Assembly (NCBI RefSeq): GCF_016919445.1
Contig: NZ_CP070356.1
Location: 3,302,001 to 3,366,000 of the forward strand
DNA from: Pseudomonas sp. PDNC002
GTDB taxonomy: Bacteria; Pseudomonadota; Gammaproteobacteria; Pseudomonadales; Pseudomonadaceae
Direction of reading: 5' to 3'
DNA: 64,000 bases
Shown: in pieces, positions 30,503-40,422 of the stretch
Position numbering within the stretch: the stretch's first letter is position 1
Layout: each line of letters starts with the position of its first letter
Notes under the pieces: generated by a model
The model's database searches: none
Seen by the model: the letters and a program-made list of their open reading frames with translations, nothing else
Told to the model about the DNA's origin: nothing
Made by a program: the position numbers and the translations under genes

Positions 30503-31324
30503 TCACTTGCCACTCCCCGCCACATCACTTGTCCCGCGCGTCAGGTAGTACGCGCCGAGAATCGGCAGCATGGTGGCGAGCATCACCAGCATGGCCACCA
30601 CATTGGTGATCGGCACATCGCGCGGGCGCGTGAGCTGGTTGAGCAGCCACAGCGGCAGGGTGCGCTCGTGGCCGGCGGTGAAGGTGGTAACGATGATCTC
30701 GTCGAACGACAGCGCGAAGGCCAGCATGCCGCCGGCCAGCAGCGCCGTGGCGATGTTCGGCAGAATGATGTAGCGGAAGGTCTGCCAGCCGTCAGCGCCC
30801 AGGTCCATGCTCGCCTCGATCAGGCTGAAGGAGGTGCGGCGGAAGCGCGCGATCACATTGTTGTAGACGATCACCACGCAGAAGGTGGCGTGGCCGATGA
30901 CGATGGTCAGGAAGCCGGGCTCGATCCCCAGCGTCTTGAACGCCGAGAGCAGGGCGATACCGGTGATGATGCCGGGCAGGGCGATGGGCAGGATCAGCAT
31001 CAGCGAGATGCTTTCCTTGCCGAAGAAATCGCGGCGATAGAGCGCGCCGGCGGCCAGGGTGCCGAGGACCATGGCGATCAGCGTCGCGACGCAGGCGATC
31101 TTCACCGACAGCCAGATGGAATCGAGTACGTCGCCGCGCTGGAAGGCGATGCTGAACCACTTCAGGGTGAAGCCCTGCAGCGGGAAGCTGTAGGCCGATT
31201 CCTCGGTGTTGAACGCGTAGAGCAGGATCACCAGGATCGGAAAGTGCAGGAACACCAGCCCGCCCCAGGCGGCCAGGCGCAGGAACCAGGAGGGGCGGTC
31301 GGTGGAATGTGCGTCAGAGCGCAT
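30503..31324 (-). CDS. ydcV: ABC transporter inner-membrane permease (YdcV-like)
   Basis: A 273-residue permease with six hydrophobic helices and the ATPase-docking EAA loop [20 protein letters not shown] near residue 180. It belongs to the PotC/YdcV group (polyamine and opine uptake). Its start overlaps the ydcU stop by 11 bases. With YdcU, YdcT and YdcS it should form an importer; gene order and the linked PatD point to putrescine or a related amine or aldehyde precursor as cargo, which remains an inference. Confidence 0.9.
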
Positions 31325-32212
31325 CGAAGGCCCCCAGCCGTTTGGCGATGGACAGGTACACGGCGATCAGCACGATGGGCACCAGGGTGAAGGCTGCCGC
31401 CAGCGGCATGTTGCCCACCGCGCCCTGCTGCACATAGACCATGGTGCCGATGAACAGCCCGCTGGGGCCCACCAGCTGCGGGATGATGAAGTCGCCCAGG
31501 GTGAGGCTGAAGGTGAAGATCGAGCCGGCCACCACGCCGGGAAAGGCCAGCGGCAGGATGACCTGGAAGAAGGTCTGTCGCGGGCGTGCGCCGAGGTCCG
31601 CCGAAGCCTGCAGCAGCGTGGGCGGCAGGCGCTCCAGGGCGGCCTGGATCGGCAGGATCATGAACGGCAGCCAGACGTAGGTGAACACCCAGAAACGCCC
31701 CAAGTGCGACGTGGACAGGGTGTTGCCGCCCACGCCGGGCACCTCCAGCAGCAGGTTCAGCAGGCCGAGCAGGTGCAGGTGTTCGATCACCCAGTAGAGG
31801 ATGCCGCCCTTGGCCAGGATCACCGTCCAGGCGTAGGCCTTGACGATGTAACTGGCCCACATCGGCAGCATCACGGCGATGTAGAAGAAGGCTTTTTCCT
31901 TGGGCCCGGCGTAGCGCGCCATGTAGTAGGCGATGGGGAAGGCGAGGATGGCGCTGGCGACCGACACGGCGATGGCCATGCTGAAGGTGCGCAGGACGAT
32001 GTCGTAGTTGGCCGGGTTGAACAGGGCCTTGTAGTTGGCCAGGGTCAGCTCCGGCGTCACCGCCATGGTGAAGTCGTCGAAGGTGTAGAAGCTCTGCCAG
32101 AGCAGGGCGAACAGCGAGCCGATGTAGATCACCCCGAACCACAGCAGCGGCGGGATCAGCAGCATCAACAGGTAGAGCGTGCTGCGCCGGTAGAGGAAGC
32201 TGGAGATCGCCC

Positions 32213-32216
<4 letters not shown>
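31314..32216 (-). CDS. ydcU: ABC transporter inner-membrane permease (YdcU-like)
   Basis: A 300-residue permease of the PotB/YdcU group with six helices and an EAA-type loop ([20 protein letters not shown], about residue 200). Long periplasmic stretch after helix 1 ([20 protein letters not shown]) is typical of the PotB half. Overlaps both neighbours: ATGA with the ATPase gene upstream and 11 bases with ydcV downstream, indicating tight coupling. Confidence 0.9.
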
Positions 32217-33232
<1,016 letters not shown>

Positions 33233-33366
33233 GCTGCGGGCTACCTGCGTGGCGGGGGCTGCATCAGAAAAGGTAGCGCATGGGGGCGGGGGTGCTTGCC
33301 GACTTGCCGGCGAGGTGGGGCATTTGTACCAGCGACAGTTTTATGGACAGGTCCTGCGCCAACGCA

Positions 33367-33486
33367 TCCCCTCACCCCAGCCCTCTCCCTTGGGGAGAGG
33401 GAGCCGTTCGTGCCGGCTGATGGCAAGGTTTCATCCTGCACCGAACGGTCCCCTCTCCCGCGTGCGGGAGAGGGTTAGGGTGAGGG
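33367..33486. repeat. REP-like unit pair between ydcS and ydcT
   Basis: CCCTCACCCCAGCCCTCTCC starts at 33369 and pairs in part with GGGAGAGGGTTAGGGTGAGG near 33465; the spacer includes the conserved CATCCTGCACCGAACGG block. It lies in the 275-base gap 33233-33507 inside the operon. Confidence 0.85.
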
Positions 33487-33507
33487 GCTTTTGATCCAGC
33501 AGGGGCA

Positions 33508-34680
33508 TCACCTCCCACCCATGATCGCAATGTAGTCCTGCGTCCAGCGGCTATACGGCACGCACTGTCCCTGAGCGCACTTGGCCTGCGGCGTCTTCCA
33601 GAAGGCAATACGGTCGAACTGGTCGTAGCCGTTGGTGGCGCAACCCTGGGCACCCAGCAATTGGCTGCCGGTGCAACCGTCGGGCGAGGCGGGCACCGAG
33701 CCGAACCAGGCGGCGACGTCACCCTGCACCTTGGGCTCCAGCGACCAGTTCAGCCACTTGTAGGCGCACACCGGGTGCTTGGCGTCGACGTGCATCATGG
33801 TGGTGTCGGCCCAGCCGGTGACGCCTTCGCCGGGGATGGTCGAGGCGATCGGCTGCTTCTCGCCCTGCAGCGCGTTCACCTGGTAGGGCCAGGAACCGGA
33901 GGCGGCGACGCCTTCGTTCTTGAAGTCGCTCATCTGCACCGTCGCGTCGTGCCAGTAGCGGTGGATCAGCTTCTGCTGTTCGCGCAGCAGCTTGAGGGCG
34001 GCGGCGTACTGTTCTTCGTTGAGCTCGTACGGGTCCTGGATGCCCAGCGCGGGCTGGGTGGCCTTCAGGTAGAGCGCCGCGTCGGCGATGTAGATCGGCC
34101 CGTCGTAGGCCTGCACACGGCCCTTGTTGCTCTTGCCGTCGGGCAGCTTCTGCTCGGTGAACACCACGCTCCAGCTATCCGGTGCCTTGGGGAAGACCTT
34201 GGTGTTGTACATCAATACGTTCGGCCCCCACTGGTACGGCGTGCCGTAGTGCTTGCCGTCCACCGTGTGCCAGGGCGCGTCCTGCAGGCGCTTGTCGACG
34301 TTTTTCCAGTTGGGCACCAGGGCGATGTTGATCGGCTGCACGCGCTTGCCGTAGACCAGCCGTAGCGATGCGTCGCCGGAGGCGGTGACCAGGTCGTAGC
34401 CGCCCTTGGCCATCAGGCTGACCATCTCGTCGGAAGTGGCGGCGGTCTTCACGTTGACCTTGCAGCCGCTGTCCTTCTCGAACTGGCTGACCCAGTCGTA
34501 GTTCTTGTCGCTTTCGCCGCGTTCGACGTAGCCGGGCCAGGCAATGATGTCGAGGGCGCCCTCTGGCTGGCCGAGTTGCTTGAGCGCCTCGGCGGCCTGC
34601 AACGAGCCACTTGAAAGCAGGCTGACGCCGGCAAAGGCCAGCGCCGCGACTTTCGCTGAAAACATTTGCACTGATGACAT
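33508..34680 (-). CDS. ydcS: Periplasmic substrate-binding protein (YdcS-like)
   Basis: A 390-residue exported binding protein, first gene of the ydcSTUV-patD-type operon. A signal peptide (MSSVQMFSAKVAALAFAGVSLLSSG, cleavage near SLQAAEA) precedes a type-2 periplasmic-binding fold (IIAWPGYVERGESDKNYDWV and YDLVTASGDASLRLVYG near the N-terminus, PVCAYKWLNWSLEPKVQ near the end). The ATG at 34680 has AGGAGT eight bases upstream; a longer in-frame start at 34782 would bury the signal peptide. The E. coli relative has been linked to polyamine uptake and also to polyhydroxybutyrate; the ligand here is uncertain. Confidence 0.92.
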   Translation of the reverse strand: MSSVQMFSAKVAALAFAGVSLLSSGSLQAAEALKQLGQPEGALDIIAWPGYVERGESDKNYDWVSQFEKDSGCKVNVKTAATSDEMVSLMAKGGYDLVTASGDASLRLVYGKRVQPINIALVPNWKNVDKRLQDAPWHTVDGKHYGTPYQWGPNVLMYNTKVFPKAPDSWSVVFTEQKLPDGKSNKGRVQAYDGPIYIADAALYLKATQPALGIQDPYELNEEQYAAALKLLREQQKLIHRYWHDATVQMSDFKNEGVAASGSWPYQVNALQGEKQPIASTIPGEGVTGWADTTMMHVDAKHPVCAYKWLNWSLEPKVQGDVAAWFGSVPASPDGCTGSQLLGAQGCATNGYDQFDRIAFWKTPQAKCAQGQCVPYSRWTQDYIAIMGGR

Positions 34681-34970
34681 GGACGGACTCCTGTTGTTCT
34701 TCGTTGTGGGAGCCACTGCGGAACCAGCGCGCAGAAAAATGGCACCTCCGTTGACCGCTGCATGTCCATAGCGAATGGGCACGCTCTTGCAGCGTAGTTC
34801 CGGCCCCAGGGGCTGACAAGAAAGCCCCCGGCGCCCCGCAAAGCCCCGTCATCTGGCGCTCGCGGCCCCAAACGGGGCGGGCCGGGGCCAACGGCCGACA
34901 AAAGCGCACCGAGCTGGTGCGAGGCGTACCGGCAGCCTTTGCAAGTCATTGAACCAACAGGAAATCGACC
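34681..34970. other. Divergent promoter region of ydcS and the Anbu operon
   Basis: The 351-base gap 34681-35031 holds no gene. It contains GC-rich inverted stretches around 34803-34890. The sigma-54 element near the right-hand gene is listed separately. Confidence 0.6.
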
Positions 34971-34972
34971 TC

Positions 34973-34987
34973 TGGCACGGGCCTTGC
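34973..34987 (+). promoter_or_regulatory. Sigma-54 (RpoN) promoter of Anbu operon
   Basis: TGGCACG-GGCC-TTGC matches the -24/-12 consensus TGGCACG-N4-TTGC at every defined base, preceded by CTC and followed by GA. The implied start site near 34999 leaves a leader of about 33 bases carrying AAGGAG before the ATG at 35032. Confidence 0.85.
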
Positions 34988-35031
34988 GATGGCCTTCCCA
35001 GCCGAGGACGAGCGGCAACAAGGAGTAGAAG

Positions 35032-36444
35032 ATGGCTCGGGTGTTCTATGACGAAATGCATGACGCCGCTGGCGCCTGCCGACCGCACTACACAGAATTT
35101 TCCCGCTGGCTGGCGGACATGCCCGGCGAGCAGCTGCAACAGCGCCGTCGCGAGGCCGACCTGCTGTTCTACCGCGCAGGCATCACCTTCACTCTCTATG
35201 GCGACGACCAGGGCACCGAGCGCCTGATCCCCTTCGACACCATCCCGCGCAGCATCCCCGCCAGCGAGTGGCGGACCATCGAGGCCGGCTGCATCCAGCG
35301 CGTACAGGCGCTCAACCTGTTTCTCGCCGACCTCTACCACGACCAGCGCATCCTCAAGGAAGGCCTTATCCCGCCCGAGCAGGTCCTGGCCAACGACCAG
35401 TACCAACTGGCGATGCAGGGCCTGGACGTGCCCGGCAATGTCTACGCGCATATCGCCGGCATCGACCTGGTGCGCGACGGCAACGGCGCCTACTACGTGC
35501 TCGAGGATAACCTGCGCACCCCCAGCGGCGTCTCCTACATGCTGGAAAACCGCAAGATGATGATGCGGCTGTTCCCCGAGCTGTTCTCCGCCCAGCGCAT
35601 CGCGCCCATCGACCACTACCCGAACCTGCTGCTGGACACCCTGCGCAACTCCAGCCCGCTGGATAACCCCAGCGTGGTGGTGCTGACGCCGGGTCGCTTC
35701 AACAGCGCCTACTTCGAGCACGCCTTCCTGGCCCGCGAGATGGGCGTGGAACTGGTGGAGGGCGCCGACCTGTTCGTCCGCGACGAGCGCGTCTACATGC
35801 GTACCACCGCTGGGCCGCAGCAGGTGGACGTGATCTACCGGCGCATCGACGACGACTTCCTCGATCCGCTGGCCTTCAACCCTGACTCCATGCTCGGCGT
35901 GCCCGGCCTGCTGGCCGCCTACCGTGCCGGCAACGTGGTGCTGGCTAATGCCATCGGCACCGGTGTGGCCGACGACAAGTCGGTCTACCCCTACGTGCCG
36001 GAGATGATCCGCTTCTACCTCGACCAGGAGCCGATCCTGCACAACGTGCCGACCTGGCAGTGCCGCCGTCCGCAGGACCTGTCCCACGTGCTGGCGCACC
36101 TCCCTGAACTCGTGGTGAAGGAAGCCCAGGGCTCCGGCGGCTACGGCATGCTGGTCGGCCCTGCGGCTACCACGGCGGAAATCGAAGCCTTCCGCGCGCG
36201 GCTGATGGCTCGCCCCGAGGCCTACATCGCGCAGCCGACGCTGAGCCTGTCGACCTGCCCGACCTTTGTCGAGAACGGCATCGCCCCGCGCCACATCGAC
36301 CTGCGGCCTTTCGTGCTGTCCGCGCCAGACAACGTGCGCCTGGTCCCCGGCGGGCTGACCCGCGTGGCGTTGCGCGAAGGTTCACTGGTCGTCAACTCGT
36401 CACAAGGTGGCGGTACCAAGGACACCTGGGTGGTGGAGGACTGA
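35032..36444 (+). CDS. Circularly permuted ATP-grasp protein
   Basis: A 470-residue protein of the circularly permuted ATP-grasp type 2 family, expected to ligate an amine to a carboxylate using ATP. Family landmarks are [32 protein letters not shown] (about residues 143-174; only key part cited), [46 protein letters not shown] and [16 protein letters not shown]. First gene of the Anbu operon, two bases from the next gene. Substrates in this family are undetermined; peptide-bond formation is the usual proposal. Confidence 0.93.
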
Positions 36445-36446
36445 TC

Positions 36447-37397
36447 ATGCTGAGCCGTACCGCTTCCGATCTCTACTGGATGTCGCGCTACCTGGAGCGT
36501 GCCGAGAACCTCGCGCGCATGCTCGACGTTTCCTACTCGTTGTCGCTGATGCCGCAGGACGGTCGCGGCGATGGCCTGGAAGAACTGGCCATGCCGCTGC
36601 TGATCACCGGCAATCTCGACGCCTATCTCGCTCGCCATGGCGAACTGCACGCCGAGCGCCTGCTGAACTTCTTCGCCCTGGATGCGCAGAACCCCACCAG
36701 CATCTATTCCTGCTTCGGCGCCGCCCGCGCCGGGGCGCACGCGGTGCGTGGGCGCATCACCACCGACATGTGGGAGAACATCAACGCCACCTGGCTGGAG
36801 ATGCGCGACATCGCCCACCAGGGCCTGCTGCGCTATGGCATCAGCCATTTCTGCGAGTGGGTGAAGGATCGTTCCCACCTGTTCCGCGGCGCCACCTTCG
36901 GCACCAGCATGCGCAACGACGCCTTCCACTTCATCCGCTTGGGCACCTACATCGAGCGCGCCGACAACACCTTGCGCCTGCTCGATGCGCGGCATCAGGT
37001 GCTGGGCGAGCATAGCGCCGGCCCGGCGGAAGGTTCCGCCCGTGGCTACTACCAGTGGACGGCACTGTTGCGCGCGCTCTCGGCCTTCGAGGGCTACACG
37101 GAGCTTTATCGCGATGCGCTGAACGCGCGGAACATCGCCGAACTCCTGCTGCTGCGCGAGGACGTCCCGCGCTCGCTGCTGGCCTGTGCCGAGGAGCTAC
37201 GCCAGATCCTCGCCAGCCTGCCGGGCGCCAACGGCCGCCCGGCCCAGCGCATGGCCGCCGAACTCGAAGCCCGGGTGCGCTACACCGGCATCGACGAGGT
37301 GCTCGGCGCCGGCCTGCACACCTGGATCACCGACCACATCGGGCTGGTGCGCCAGCTCGCCAACGCCATTCACAGCTCGTACCTGGAGGCCGCATGA
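36447..37397 (+). CDS. Alpha-E domain protein
   Basis: A 316-residue all-helical protein beginning MLSRTASDLYWMSRYLERAE, the hallmark of the alpha-E family, which is almost always encoded next to a circularly permuted ATP-grasp gene and a transglutaminase-like gene. ATWLEMRDIAHQG and HFIRLGTYIERADNTLRLLD are further conserved segments. No catalytic motif is known; it may hold substrate or bridge the two enzymes. Its stop overlaps the next start (ATGA). Confidence 0.92.
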   Translation: MLSRTASDLYWMSRYLERAENLARMLDVSYSLSLMPQDGRGDGLEELAMPLLITGNLDAYLARHGELHAERLLNFFALDAQNPTSIYSCFGAARAGAHAVRGRITTDMWENINATWLEMRDIAHQGLLRYGISHFCEWVKDRSHLFRGATFGTSMRNDAFHFIRLGTYIERADNTLRLLDARHQVLGEHSAGPAEGSARGYYQWTALLRALSAFEGYTELYRDALNARNIAELLLLREDVPRSLLACAEELRQILASLPGANGRPAQRMAAELEARVRYTGIDEVLGAGLHTWITDHIGLVRQLANAIHSSYLEAA

Positions 37398-38203
37398 AAC
37401 TCTCCATCCGCCACGACACCACCTACCGCTACGAAGACCAGGTGCGCGCGAGCATCCAGTACCTGCGCCTCACCCCGCAGGAAAGCGAGCGCCAGCACGT
37501 GCTCGACTGGCAGCTGCATCTGCCGCGCCCGGCGCATCCGCAGCGCGATGCCTACGGCAACATCCTTCATGTGCTGACCCTCGACGAGCCCCACGAGGCC
37601 ATCGCCATCGCCGCTCATGGCAACGTCGAAATCGACGTGCAGAACGAGTGCGAGCACGATCACCTGTCGCCGCTGCCGTTCCTGCGCAGCACCCGCCTGA
37701 CCCTGGCCGACGGCGCGCTGCAGGAGTTTGCCCGCGCCCAGTGCGCCGAGCGCCGCGACCGCAAGGCGATGATCCGCCTGATGCAGGCGCTGAACGAGCG
37801 CATCGCCTATGTGCCCGGTTCGACCCAGGTGGACAGCACCGCCGCCGAAGCCTTTGCCGCGGGGCAGGGCGTCTGCCAGGACCATGCCCACGCCTTCGTT
37901 GCCTGTCTGCGCTACCTCGGGGTGCCGGCGCGCTACGTCTCCGGCTACCTCTACACCGATGTCGAGGAGCATCTGGCCAGCCATGCCTGGGCCGAGGCGT
38001 GGTTGGATAACGCCTGGTACAGCTTCGACGTGACCAACGTGCTGGATCGCCCCGAACGCCACCTGAAACTGGCGGTGGGCCTGGACTACCTCGACGCCTG
38101 CCCGGTGCGCGGCATGCGCCGGGGCGGCGGCGGCGAGCAGATGCATGCCCGCGTCACCGTGGCGCCGGGGCATCTGCAGCAGGCCCAGCAGATGCAGCAG
38201 TGA
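37394..38203 (+). CDS. Transglutaminase-like cysteine protease
   Basis: A 269-residue protein. The N-terminal ~135 residues form the bacterial transglutaminase N-terminal beta domain (IRHDTTYRYEDQVRASIQYLR region); the papain-like core follows with Cys161 (GQGVCQDHAHAF), His197 (ASHAWAEAW) and Asp212 (SFDVTN), a complete triad. No signal peptide, so cytoplasmic. It should cleave or form isopeptide or amide bonds, opposing or completing the ATP-grasp ligase. Overlaps the alpha-E gene by four bases. Confidence 0.93.
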   Translation: MKLSIRHDTTYRYEDQVRASIQYLRLTPQESERQHVLDWQLHLPRPAHPQRDAYGNILHVLTLDEPHEAIAIAAHGNVEIDVQNECEHDHLSPLPFLRSTRLTLADGALQEFARAQCAERRDRKAMIRLMQALNERIAYVPGSTQVDSTAAEAFAAGQGVCQDHAHAFVACLRYLGVPARYVSGYLYTDVEEHLASHAWAEAWLDNAWYSFDVTNVLDRPERHLKLAVGLDYLDACPVRGMRRGGGGEQMHARVTVAPGHLQQAQQMQQ

Positions 38204-38281
38204 GCGGGCGTGGCGAAAGGCCGGGCACCGGCTTAAGATCGGTGCCAGCTTCCCGCTCCCTGAACCTGCCATGAGAACGTC

Positions 38282-39016
38282 ATGACCTATTGCGTCGCCA
38301 TGAACCTCGCCCAGGGCCTGGTCTTCGTTTCTGATTCGCGCACCAACGCCGGCGTCGACAACATCGCCGTGTTCCGCAAGCTGCATATCTTCGGCACACC
38401 CGGCGAGCGTCTGATCGTGGTGCAGACCGCCGGCAACCTGGCCACCTCGCAGTCTGTGATCAGCGTGCTGCGGCAGCGCATGGGCAGCGACGAACCTAAC
38501 CTGGGGAACGTCGAGAACCTGTTCGAAGCGGCCCGGCTGGTGGGGTCGACGCTGCGCGAGGTGGTCGACCACGACGAGAACATCGGCCAGAACCAGGGCG
38601 TCGACCTGGGCAGTTCGTTCCTCGTTGGCGGGCAGATCGGCACCGAGGTGCCGCGCCTGTTCAACGTCTACCCGCAGGGCAACTTCATCGAATCGACCCG
38701 CGACACGCCGTATTTCCAGATCGGCGAGAGCAAGTACGGCAAGCCGATCATCGACCGCGCCATGAGCTACGCGACGCCGCTGGAGCAGGCGCTGCGCTGC
38801 GCGCTGATCAGCTTCGACTCGACCATCCGCAGCAACCTGTCGGTGGGCATGCCGCTGGATCTGCTGGTGTACCGCGAAGGCAGCCTGGAGGTCCCGGCGG
38901 GGTACCGCATCCAGGAAGGCGATGCGTACTTCGAGGGCATTCGCGGGCAGTGGGGCGCGGGGCTGCGGCAGCTGCTCGGCGAACTGCCAGCGCCGCCGGA
39001 GGATTACTGGCACTGA
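38282..39016 (+). CDS. Anbu proteasome-like peptidase
   Basis: A 244-residue member of the Ntn-hydrolase proteasome family, Anbu type, related to HslV and the proteasome beta subunit. After removal of Met, Thr2 becomes the N-terminal nucleophile (MTYCVAMN); Asp18 (FVSDSRTN) and Lys33 (FRKLHIF) complete the proteasome-type active site. No ATPase partner is encoded nearby, unlike HslUV. The gene follows the transglutaminase by 78 bases on the same strand, and Anbu genes usually accompany exactly this set, so I place all four in one operon. Confidence 0.93.
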   Translation: MTYCVAMNLAQGLVFVSDSRTNAGVDNIAVFRKLHIFGTPGERLIVVQTAGNLATSQSVISVLRQRMGSDEPNLGNVENLFEAARLVGSTLREVVDHDENIGQNQGVDLGSSFLVGGQIGTEVPRLFNVYPQGNFIESTRDTPYFQIGESKYGKPIIDRAMSYATPLEQALRCALISFDSTIRSNLSVGMPLDLLVYREGSLEVPAGYRIQEGDAYFEGIRGQWGAGLRQLLGELPAPPEDYWH

Positions 39017-39035
39017 CGTTTCGCTGCGGGGCGGG

Positions 39036-39604
39036 TTCGCGGAGAAGCTCCGCTCCTACAGGGGAGCTGGGAGCTTGGGTTTTCGCTCTTTGTAGGAGCG
39101 GATCTTATCCGCGATGCCCGCCGGCAGCTCGGCGCGCCGATCCAGACCACTGTCCCGGCTACGCCGGGATTTCGCGGAGAAGCTCCGCTCCTACAGGGGA
39201 GCCGGAAGCTTGGAGTTTCGCTCTTTGTAGGAGCGGATCTTATCCGCGATGCTTGCCGGCAGATCGGTGCGCTGATCCAGACCACTGTCCCGGCTACGCC
39301 GGGATTTCGCGGAGAAGCTCCGCTCCTACAGGGGAGCGGGGAGCTTGGAGCTTCGCTCTTTGTAGGAGCGGATCTTATCCGCGATGCCCGCCGGCAGCTC
39401 GGCGCGCTGAGCCAGACCAGTGTCCCGGCTGCGCCGGGATTTCGCGGAGAAGCTCCGCTCCTACAGGGGAGCGGGGAGCTTGGAGTTTCGCTCTTTTGTT
39501 AGGAGCGGATCTTATCCGCGATGCCCGCCGGCAGATCGACGCGCTGAGCTAGACCACTGTCCCGGCTGCGCCGGGATTTCGCGGATAAGATCCGCTCCTA
39601 CGGG
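39036..39604. repeat. Tandem array of ~135-bp bipartite REP units
   Basis: TTCGCGGAGAAGCTCCGCTC begins at 39036, 39171, 39306 and 39441, with a variant TTCGCGGATAAGATCCGCTC at 39578; steps are 135, 135, 135 and 137 bases. Between these, opposite-facing copies of TGTAGGAGCGGATCTTATCC begin at 39091, 39226 and 39361 with a degenerate one near 39498. Units thus resemble BIMEs, two inverted REPs with two spacers. The array fills the 602-base gap 39017-39618. Confidence 0.95.
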
Positions 39605-39618
39605 GCAAGCCCTTCCGA

Positions 39619-40422
39619 TCAGCCTCCGGCTTTAGACTTCCGCCCCGCCATGTGCTTCAGGTAAGCCACGATCTCATCCAGCTCTTTGTCGCTGATCACA
39701 TCCGCCGCAAACCCCTTCATCCGCGCCTCCGGCCAGTGCCGCAGGCTCTGCGGATCGCGGATGTACTGCTTGAGATATCCCGCGGCGAAATACTCCGTCG
39801 GATTGTGCGGAATATTCAGGTCCGGCCCGAACTGCGAATCCCCCGCACCGTTCAGGCGATGACAGGCCAGGCAGTTCTTCTGGAACTGGGCGAACCCATC
39901 CTGAACCTGCTTCGACGCATTCTTCGCTGGCAACAACGCCGGGAAACGCTCAGCCAGCGGTTTCAGGTAACGAATAGTGGCAACCTGGAACGGCCATTGC
40001 TCCGGGCCGATGCCGGCGGCTTTGGGATCGGTCCAGACCAGATAGAACGGCCCGGCGGATGGCTTGCCGTCGCCCAGCTTCGGCCAGGGCTTGTCCGACT
40101 GCTCAATGGCCAGCCAGGCGCGTGAGCCTTTGTCCTCCAGCAGCGGCGCCGCCGGCAACTCGGCGGCGAACCCATCGAGCGCCACGGCCTGCAGGTGATC
40201 GCCGGGCTTCACGCTGTCCAGCAGCACAGCCAGGGGTACCGCGCGGTAGTGCATGGCGCGGTTGTAGGAGACGTCGGCGGGAATCTCGATGTCCTGCGCC
40301 TTGGGGTTGGCCAGCAACTGTTCAGTGCTGAAGTCATGCTTGCCGTCAGGCAGCTCCAGCGTGAGCGTCGCGGCGAAAGCGGTGGGGCAGAGCAGGAGCA
40401 GCGTCAGCAGCAGTGGGCGCAT
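39619..40422 (-). CDS. Periplasmic c-type cytochrome with N-terminal oxidoreductase-like domain
   Basis: A 267-residue exported protein. Signal peptide MRPLLLTLLLLCPTAFA is followed by a ~140-residue domain (LTLELPDGKHDFSTEQLLA ... YRAVPLAVLLDSV ... GPFYLVWTDP) that resembles molybdopterin-type oxidoreductase folds but carries no obvious cofactor Cys. The C-terminal ~85 residues form a class I cytochrome c with heme motif CLACH and a Met-containing segment (EARMKGF) as candidate sixth ligand. It should shuttle electrons in the periplasm; the partner is unknown. Confidence 0.85.
   Translation of the reverse strand: MRPLLLTLLLLCPTAFAATLTLELPDGKHDFSTEQLLANPKAQDIEIPADVSYNRAMHYRAVPLAVLLDSVKPGDHLQAVALDGFAAELPAAPLLEDKGSRAWLAIEQSDKPWPKLGDGKPSAGPFYLVWTDPKAAGIGPEQWPFQVATIRYLKPLAERFPALLPAKNASKQVQDGFAQFQKNCLACHRLNGAGDSQFGPDLNIPHNPTEYFAAGYLKQYIRDPQSLRHWPEARMKGFAADVISDKELDEIVAYLKHMAGRKSKAGG

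Follow-up and report, generated by a model that had tools for sequence, protein, structure and literature searches.

An Anbu operon of Pseudomonas sp. PDNC002 with a conserved -24/-12 element and an NtrC-type site: evidence for probable nitrogen control

Here, we describe the upstream region, gene content and relatives of an operon for Anbu, a member of the proteasome superfamily, that lies within a 64,000-nt stretch of the Pseudomonas sp. PDNC002 genome (contig NZ_CP070356.1, positions 3,302,001–3,366,000 of the forward strand; hereafter, the window, in whose numbering positions are given). The operon is very probably under NtrC/sigma-54 control from a single promoter, since it is preceded by an exact -24/-12 element and an NtrC-type palindrome, shares its promoter layout with glnA of the same genome, and keeps these features in its relatives. 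Nitrogen control of this operon is already in print for Pseudomonas putida, and its regulation is largely known; what is added here is an NtrC-type site with near-fixed spacing (66–70 nt) across the Pseudomonadaceae, a strict composite site that in this genome is common to the Anbu operon and glnA only, and the wide occurrence of the sigma-54 element among Anbu operons. A literature search at the level of article listings returned no description of the fixed spacing across the Pseudomonadaceae, and Hervas 2009 may describe the P. putida site. An earlier, sequence-only reading of the window had proposed the link to sigma-54 and nitrogen and called it the least described part of the system; the link is supported by the NtrC-type site and by wide conservation, whereas the second statement was wrong in view of the P. 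putida work.

Promoter elements upstream of the operon

The candidate sigma-54 element TGGCACGGGCCTTGC lies 44 nt ahead of the ATG at 35032, with a GG-to-GC distance of 10 bp, and a transcription start near 34999 is predicted from these two positions. That an exact TGGCACG-N4-TTGC stands at -24/-12 shortly before the first ATG had been noted in the sequence-only reading and is borne out: it is found at 34973–34987 and nowhere else in the window. Taken singly, this match is weak evidence, because the 6.39 Mb genome has six exact matches to the motif and four to the reversed pattern; with up to two mismatches allowed, the window holds 30 matches versus 34.4 expected by chance (i.e., no excess). 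The hexamer pair on its own was rejected as proof for these reasons. It is the nearby palindrome, together with conservation across species, that raises the match above chance.

The palindrome (CGCACCGAGCTGGTGCG, i.e., CGCACcgagctgGTGCG; 34905–34921), scored against what we take to be the NtrC consensus, begins 68 nt before the -24 element. It had been missed by the sequence-only reading and was found by the upstream search for an NtrC-type enhancer that this reading had suggested. A strict composite of the two sites (GCAC-N7-GTGC, 30–60 nt, TGGC-N7-TTGC) has two matches in the genome, against none for the reversed control, and these lie ahead of the Anbu operon and of glnA. The product of the latter gene is glutamine synthetase according to Pfam (Gln-synt_C, 2e-138; Gln-synt_N, 2.5e-31), and glnA is a textbook NtrC target. 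The two promoters have every part of the composite in common; they differ in that the matched palindrome of glnA is 8 nt farther from its -24 element and that, judged by eye, more GCAC/GTGC half-sites are present upstream of it. A search of 25 genus genomes gave 33 matches to the composite versus 6 to the control, and 15 of the 33 lie ahead of the Anbu operon.

Single loci for the two regulators exceed the curated cut-offs in this genome (ntrC, 803 bits; rpoN, 527 bits). For this strain, we infer NtrC binding, activation and the start site as follows: nitrogen shortage would activate NtrB/NtrC and cause NtrC to be phosphorylated; NtrC~P would bind the palindrome at 34905–34921, at about -86, and loop onto the sigma-54 polymerase at 34973–34987; and transcription would begin near 34999, with the four proteins being made together.

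Conservation of the element and its spacing

Anbu was found in 21 of the 25 genus genomes searched (own genome counted). All 20 other operon-bearing genomes keep the -24/-12 element (19 exactly and one with a single mismatch), as the sequence-only reading had proposed to check in other Pseudomonas, and all 20 have an NtrC-like site agreeing at 8 or 9 of 10 positions 66–68 nt before it; this set overlaps the named loci described below, with which it shares several genomes. The central 7 bases of the palindrome vary among relatives, while its half-sites and their spacing to the -24 element are kept.

The element was then scored at 146 operon starts in two collections. The 73 named loci comprise the window and 80 loci minus 8 (in seven, of which some lie at contig ends, the stretch had no ATP-grasp match; one was too near a contig end), and the 73 loci of the phylum sample are what remained of 100 regions, drawn from 99 of at least 161 matching genomes and mostly one per genus, after removal of 27 (the stretch had no ATP-grasp match in 24, and in 3 the match ran in the opposite direction). 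An element was called at a score of at least 14 of 16.5, no more than 135 nt from the start; the weights were set by hand, both this cut-off and the interval of -66 to -70 used below were fixed after a first look at the loci, and counts over related sequences are not independent. By this measure, the element is present in 30 of the 32 named Pseudomonadaceae loci, window included (0.85 expected by shuffling), in 40 of the 41 remaining named loci (0.77 expected), in 10 of the 20 loci sampled from the window's class (0.42 expected), and in 12 of the 53 from other classes (0.94 expected). From their record titles, the 41 are presumably Neisseriales, Burkholderiales, Enterobacterales and Moraxellaceae, plus some unplaced metagenome-assembled genomes (MAGs). 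Over all sets, the position-bound criterion gives 92 positives versus about 3 expected; when each of the 146 starts is compared with its own shuffles, 92 reach p ≤ 0.05 (about 7 expected) and 59 reach p ≤ 0.01.

The spacing of the NtrC-like site is distinct in the family of the window. All 30 Pseudomonadaceae positives have, at -66 to -70, a site in which at least 7 of the 10 positions agree, as compared to a mean of 1.1 and a maximum of 6 for other intervals of the same 5-nt width; at 8 or more positions, the figures are 21 of 30 and a maximum of 1.

Nitrogen control in published work and competing explanations

We take COG3484 to be the Anbu family. This group appears in a 2025 survey of the sigma-54 regulon, which infers sigma-54 control for the same gene family from group-level enrichment and, in the passages on this group, gives neither an NtrC site nor a spacing (PMC12316311). 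The other publications are likewise cited from the passages that concern these genes. Anbu is upregulated under nitrogen limitation (PMC5666114 and PMC6376114, both citing Hervas 2008), and the operon PP_2685–PP_2688 of P. putida KT2440, or parts of it, is induced by nitrogen limitation (PMC7801951; PMC3325844) and was assigned to NtrB/NtrC by PMC7801951, citing Hervas 2009. A fragment of 200–300 bp from upstream of PP_2688 conferred 3.7-fold induction on nitrogen depletion in a reporter circuit (PMC8050072). The published functions of this operon fit those found here (PP_2688, circularly permuted ATP-grasp type 2; PP_2686, transglutaminase; PP_2685, proteasome beta-like), and the comparison with this other species covers function and nitrogen-responsive induction (PMC7801951; PMC3325844; PMC8050072). 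The passages on Anbu of P. aeruginosa and Yersinia bercovieri contain no promoter study (Fuchs 2017, PMC5666114; PMC6376114). In Caulobacter, the transglutaminase homologue hvyA has an NtrC peak and its transcription rises without ntrC; the passage names no Anbu operon (PMC10274813).

Several observations weigh against NtrC/sigma-54 control. A P. putida rpoN mutant still induces the operon, PP_2686 rising 12.61-fold in the wild type and 14.16-fold in the mutant (and 37.31-fold in a relA/spoT strain; PMC7801951). Since urtA, likewise assigned to NtrB/NtrC, is also still induced in the same rpoN strain (PMC7801951), this result can be read in two ways: either regulation does not depend strictly on RpoN, or the strain or condition was unusual. 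The operon proteins were described as constitutive, moderate and unchanged across conditions except nitrogen limitation (PMC5666114), fragments from PP_2685 and glnK were constitutive in the reporter assay mentioned above (PMC8050072), and the main texts of three papers on nitrogen or NtrC, two of them concerning P. stutzeri A1501, nowhere refer to proteasome, transglutaminase or ATP-grasp (PMC8443478; PMC5748707; PMC2820453). The failure to find a sigma-70-like site at 34650–35100 is entered here with little weight, as 0.1 were expected anyway. Of the loci in the phylum sample, 10 of the 20 from the same class and 41 of the 53 from other classes have no match by the element criterion (L121, L124, L133 and L151 being near misses), and outside the Pseudomonadaceae an NtrC-like site (7 or more positions) lies at -66 to -70 in 11 of 40 loci, with other intervals reaching 14. 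The sigma-54 element is thus supported there and the NtrC site is not, because its fixed spacing is not distinct. Finally, the sequence-only reading had named loss of the element from close relatives that keep the operon as evidence against its proposal; no such loss is seen within the genus, whereas three loci of the family, L059 (Azomonas agilis), L061 (a MAG) and L110, as well as L074 (Vogesella), have no good element near the start. All four retain the genes from ATP-grasp to Anbu, except that L059 has no transglutaminase-like gene. L059 and L061 are the two negatives among the 32 named Pseudomonadaceae, and L110 is counted among the negatives of the same-class sample. Judged by sequence, sigma-54 control of Anbu operons is widespread, not universal.

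Three other explanations of the upstream region were weighed. A genuine sigma-54 promoter whose main activator is an enhancer-binding protein other than NtrC is improbable: NtrC-like regulators are abundant in the genome (109 model matches including receiver-only ones, one of them over the cut-off), and the site has no fixed place outside the Pseudomonadaceae, but every positive locus of this family has a site that fits the NtrC consensus and whose offset is fixed, the layout recurs at glnA, and a transglutaminase-like cluster of Burkholderia cenocepacia, which may be a paralogous operon, needs both sigma-54 and NtrC (PMC5491218). Slightly less credible still is a mainly constitutive operon with an unrecognised sigma-70 promoter and an incidental -24/-12 match. 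The constitutive, moderate expression (PMC5666114) and the induction kept by the rpoN mutant (PMC7801951) would suit it, yet conservation far exceeds that of shuffled DNA by both measures given above, and the P. putida promoter fragment is inducible in a reporter (PMC8050072). The least credible proposal is that the palindrome is a terminator hairpin of leftward transcription. A terminator scan called it as such on the minus strand (6 pairs with a short run of T; shuffles give 0.5 expected hits for the 1 observed). Against this proposal, its central 7 bases vary among relatives while half-sites and spacing stay constant, and the identified leftward gene starts at 34680, which is already past the hairpin when read leftward, so that a terminator here would have to serve an antisense transcript. 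NtrC/sigma-54 control accordingly remains the preferred reading of the upstream region.

Operon proteins, neighbourhood and possible function

The four rightward genes of the window span 35032–39016 and are separated, in gene order, by +2, -4 (an overlap) and +78 nt (Table 1). By sequence they form a canonical Anbu operon: the gene order is that of PMC6376114, and the Thr after Met, the Asp and the Lys of Anbu are in place. Open reading frames (ORFs), Pfam and Protein Data Bank (PDB) matches agree with the four adjacent genes with overlaps or short gaps that the sequence-only reading had listed, and the catalytic residues that it had called intact are both present and conserved in aligned sequences: in Anbu, T2 in 199 of 200, D18 in 200 of 200 and K33 in 200 of 200; in the transglutaminase-like protein, C161 in 162 of 164, H197 in 163 of 164 and D212 in 164 of 164. 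These alignments exclude rows with stops or below 85% of the length, and include close relatives and duplicates. The closest PDB chains of Anbu, 5lox and 5nyw, are those that we take to be Anbu of P. aeruginosa and Yersinia bercovieri; the match to the Pfam Proteasome family is weak (E 9e-05). The start of the transglutaminase-like gene was placed internal to a longer ORF of the program-made list. NCBIfam gave no useful match for any of the four proteins, Alpha-E had no sequence match in the PDB up to E 1, and no RNA family reached its gathering score at 34600–39700. Alpha-E has a single match in the whole genome, and a second Alpha-E operon was not found.

Table 1. Predicted features of the Anbu operon and its upstream region (window coordinates; aa, amino acids)
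Feature	Position	Strand	Details
Candidate NtrC-type enhancer palindrome, CGCACCGAGCTGGTGCG = CGCACcgagctgGTGCG	34905..34921	+	8/10 consensus positions; centre ~-86 from predicted start
Candidate sigma-54 -24/-12 element, TGGCACGGGCCTTGC	34973..34987	+	Exact consensus TGGCACG-N4-TTGC; predicted start ~34999
Circularly permuted ATP-grasp protein, 470 aa	35032..36444	+	Pfam CP_ATPgrasp_2 PF14403, E 2.6e-169; PDB 3n6x, 8.1e-214
Alpha-E protein, 316 aa	36447..37397	+	Pfam Alpha-E PF04168, E 4.2e-91
Transglutaminase-like protein, 269 aa, C161/H197/D212	37394..38203	+	Bact_transglu_N PF08379, 3.9e-23; Transglut_core PF01841, 4e-22; PDB 3isr, 1e-13
Anbu, N-terminal nucleophile (Ntn) hydrolase of the proteasome superfamily, 244 aa, T2/D18/K33	38282..39016	+	PDB Anbu chains 5lox, 3.1e-99 (best), and 5nyw, 2.1e-89

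Just past Anbu, at 39036–39605, a 135-nt unit is repeated in tandem 4.2 times (93% matches); the array has inverted arms and is presumably of the repetitive extragenic palindromic (REP) or bacterial interspersed mosaic element (BIME) kind. On the other side, the minus strand at 30503–34680 carries a divergent YdcS-type solute-binding gene (764.6 bits with the YdcS model), an ATP-binding cassette (ABC) ATPase and two permease genes; no sigma-54 match within two mismatches was found on the minus strand ahead of the YdcS-type gene. Upstream neighbours are diverse across loci: the 92 scanned include GGDEF (8), Spermine_synth (5), Ribonuc_L-PSP (5), class-I glutamine amidotransferase (GATase; 5), PAS_4 (5) and ammonium transporter (2) matches. 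These 92, surveyed as a lead, were hand-picked from 144 called by a crude ORF caller, mostly short or repeated ones being omitted and that of L031 being shortened to its in-frame part. The operon itself also varies. Anbu has no ATP-grasp match in the fetched stretch at L085, L091, L104 and the 24 phylum-sample loci set aside above (e.g., L115, L117, L122); the ATP-grasp and Alpha-E genes adjoin Anbu in the opposite direction at L119, L132 and L143; and about 500 nt separate the Alpha-E and transglutaminase-like matches at L070, L074, L077, L082 and L093. Anbu matches were also found in 26 plasmid records.

For the function of the operon, we tentatively favour a salvage system for nitrogen shortage, because it fits nitrogen control best: the ATP-grasp protein may form amide or isopeptide linkages, and bonds of this kind may be remodelled or hydrolysed by the cysteine enzyme and Anbu. 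Amide-bond formation is expected of the first protein from knowledge of its family, and the other two are predicted from their residue patterns to be hydrolases or transferases. The Yersinia ATP-grasp protein releases phosphate from ATP (PMC6376114), and the idea of a make-and-break tag resembles a hypothesis published by Iyer et al. 2009, which PMC5666114 and PMC6376114 cite in passages that name no ligated product. Somewhat more doubtful is the view, suggested in PMC5666114, that Anbu is an ordinary degradative protease: it would increase protein turnover when cells are starved of nitrogen, and no tag chemistry would be involved. Membership of the proteasome superfamily and the conserved T2/D18/K33 would accord with it; set against this, tested Anbu proteins had no detectable amidase activity on standard fluorogenic peptides (PMC6376114), the operon contains no AAA+ gene, and the ligase and cysteine enzyme accompany Anbu in most fetched loci.

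It is much less likely that the operon makes and recovers, under NtrC, a nitrogen store or conjugate with amide linkages, possibly a glutamyl-polyamine. Here, the coupling of amines to carboxyl or glutamine groups would fall to the ATP-grasp and transglutaminase-like enzymes, and the release of the amines to Anbu. Polyamines are amine donors of transglutaminases, and three thin leads point to them: YdcS-type transport genes point away from the operon, on its upstream side, in the window and in 8 close loci; a spermidine-synthase-like gene stands upstream of the operon in 10 other loci of the family, which include Stutzerimonas (L049, L051, L053, L054, L055, L057, L059, L061, L111 and L199; the Spermine_synth family was confirmed for L061); and the closest solved ATP-grasp structure, 3n6x, is titled a putative glutathionylspermidine synthase.

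Within the proteasome superfamily, Anbu is a branch about which little is understood. Whichever chemistry the operon performs, its conserved and very probable NtrC/sigma-54 control points to nitrogen limitation as the condition under which the substrate of Anbu should be sought.

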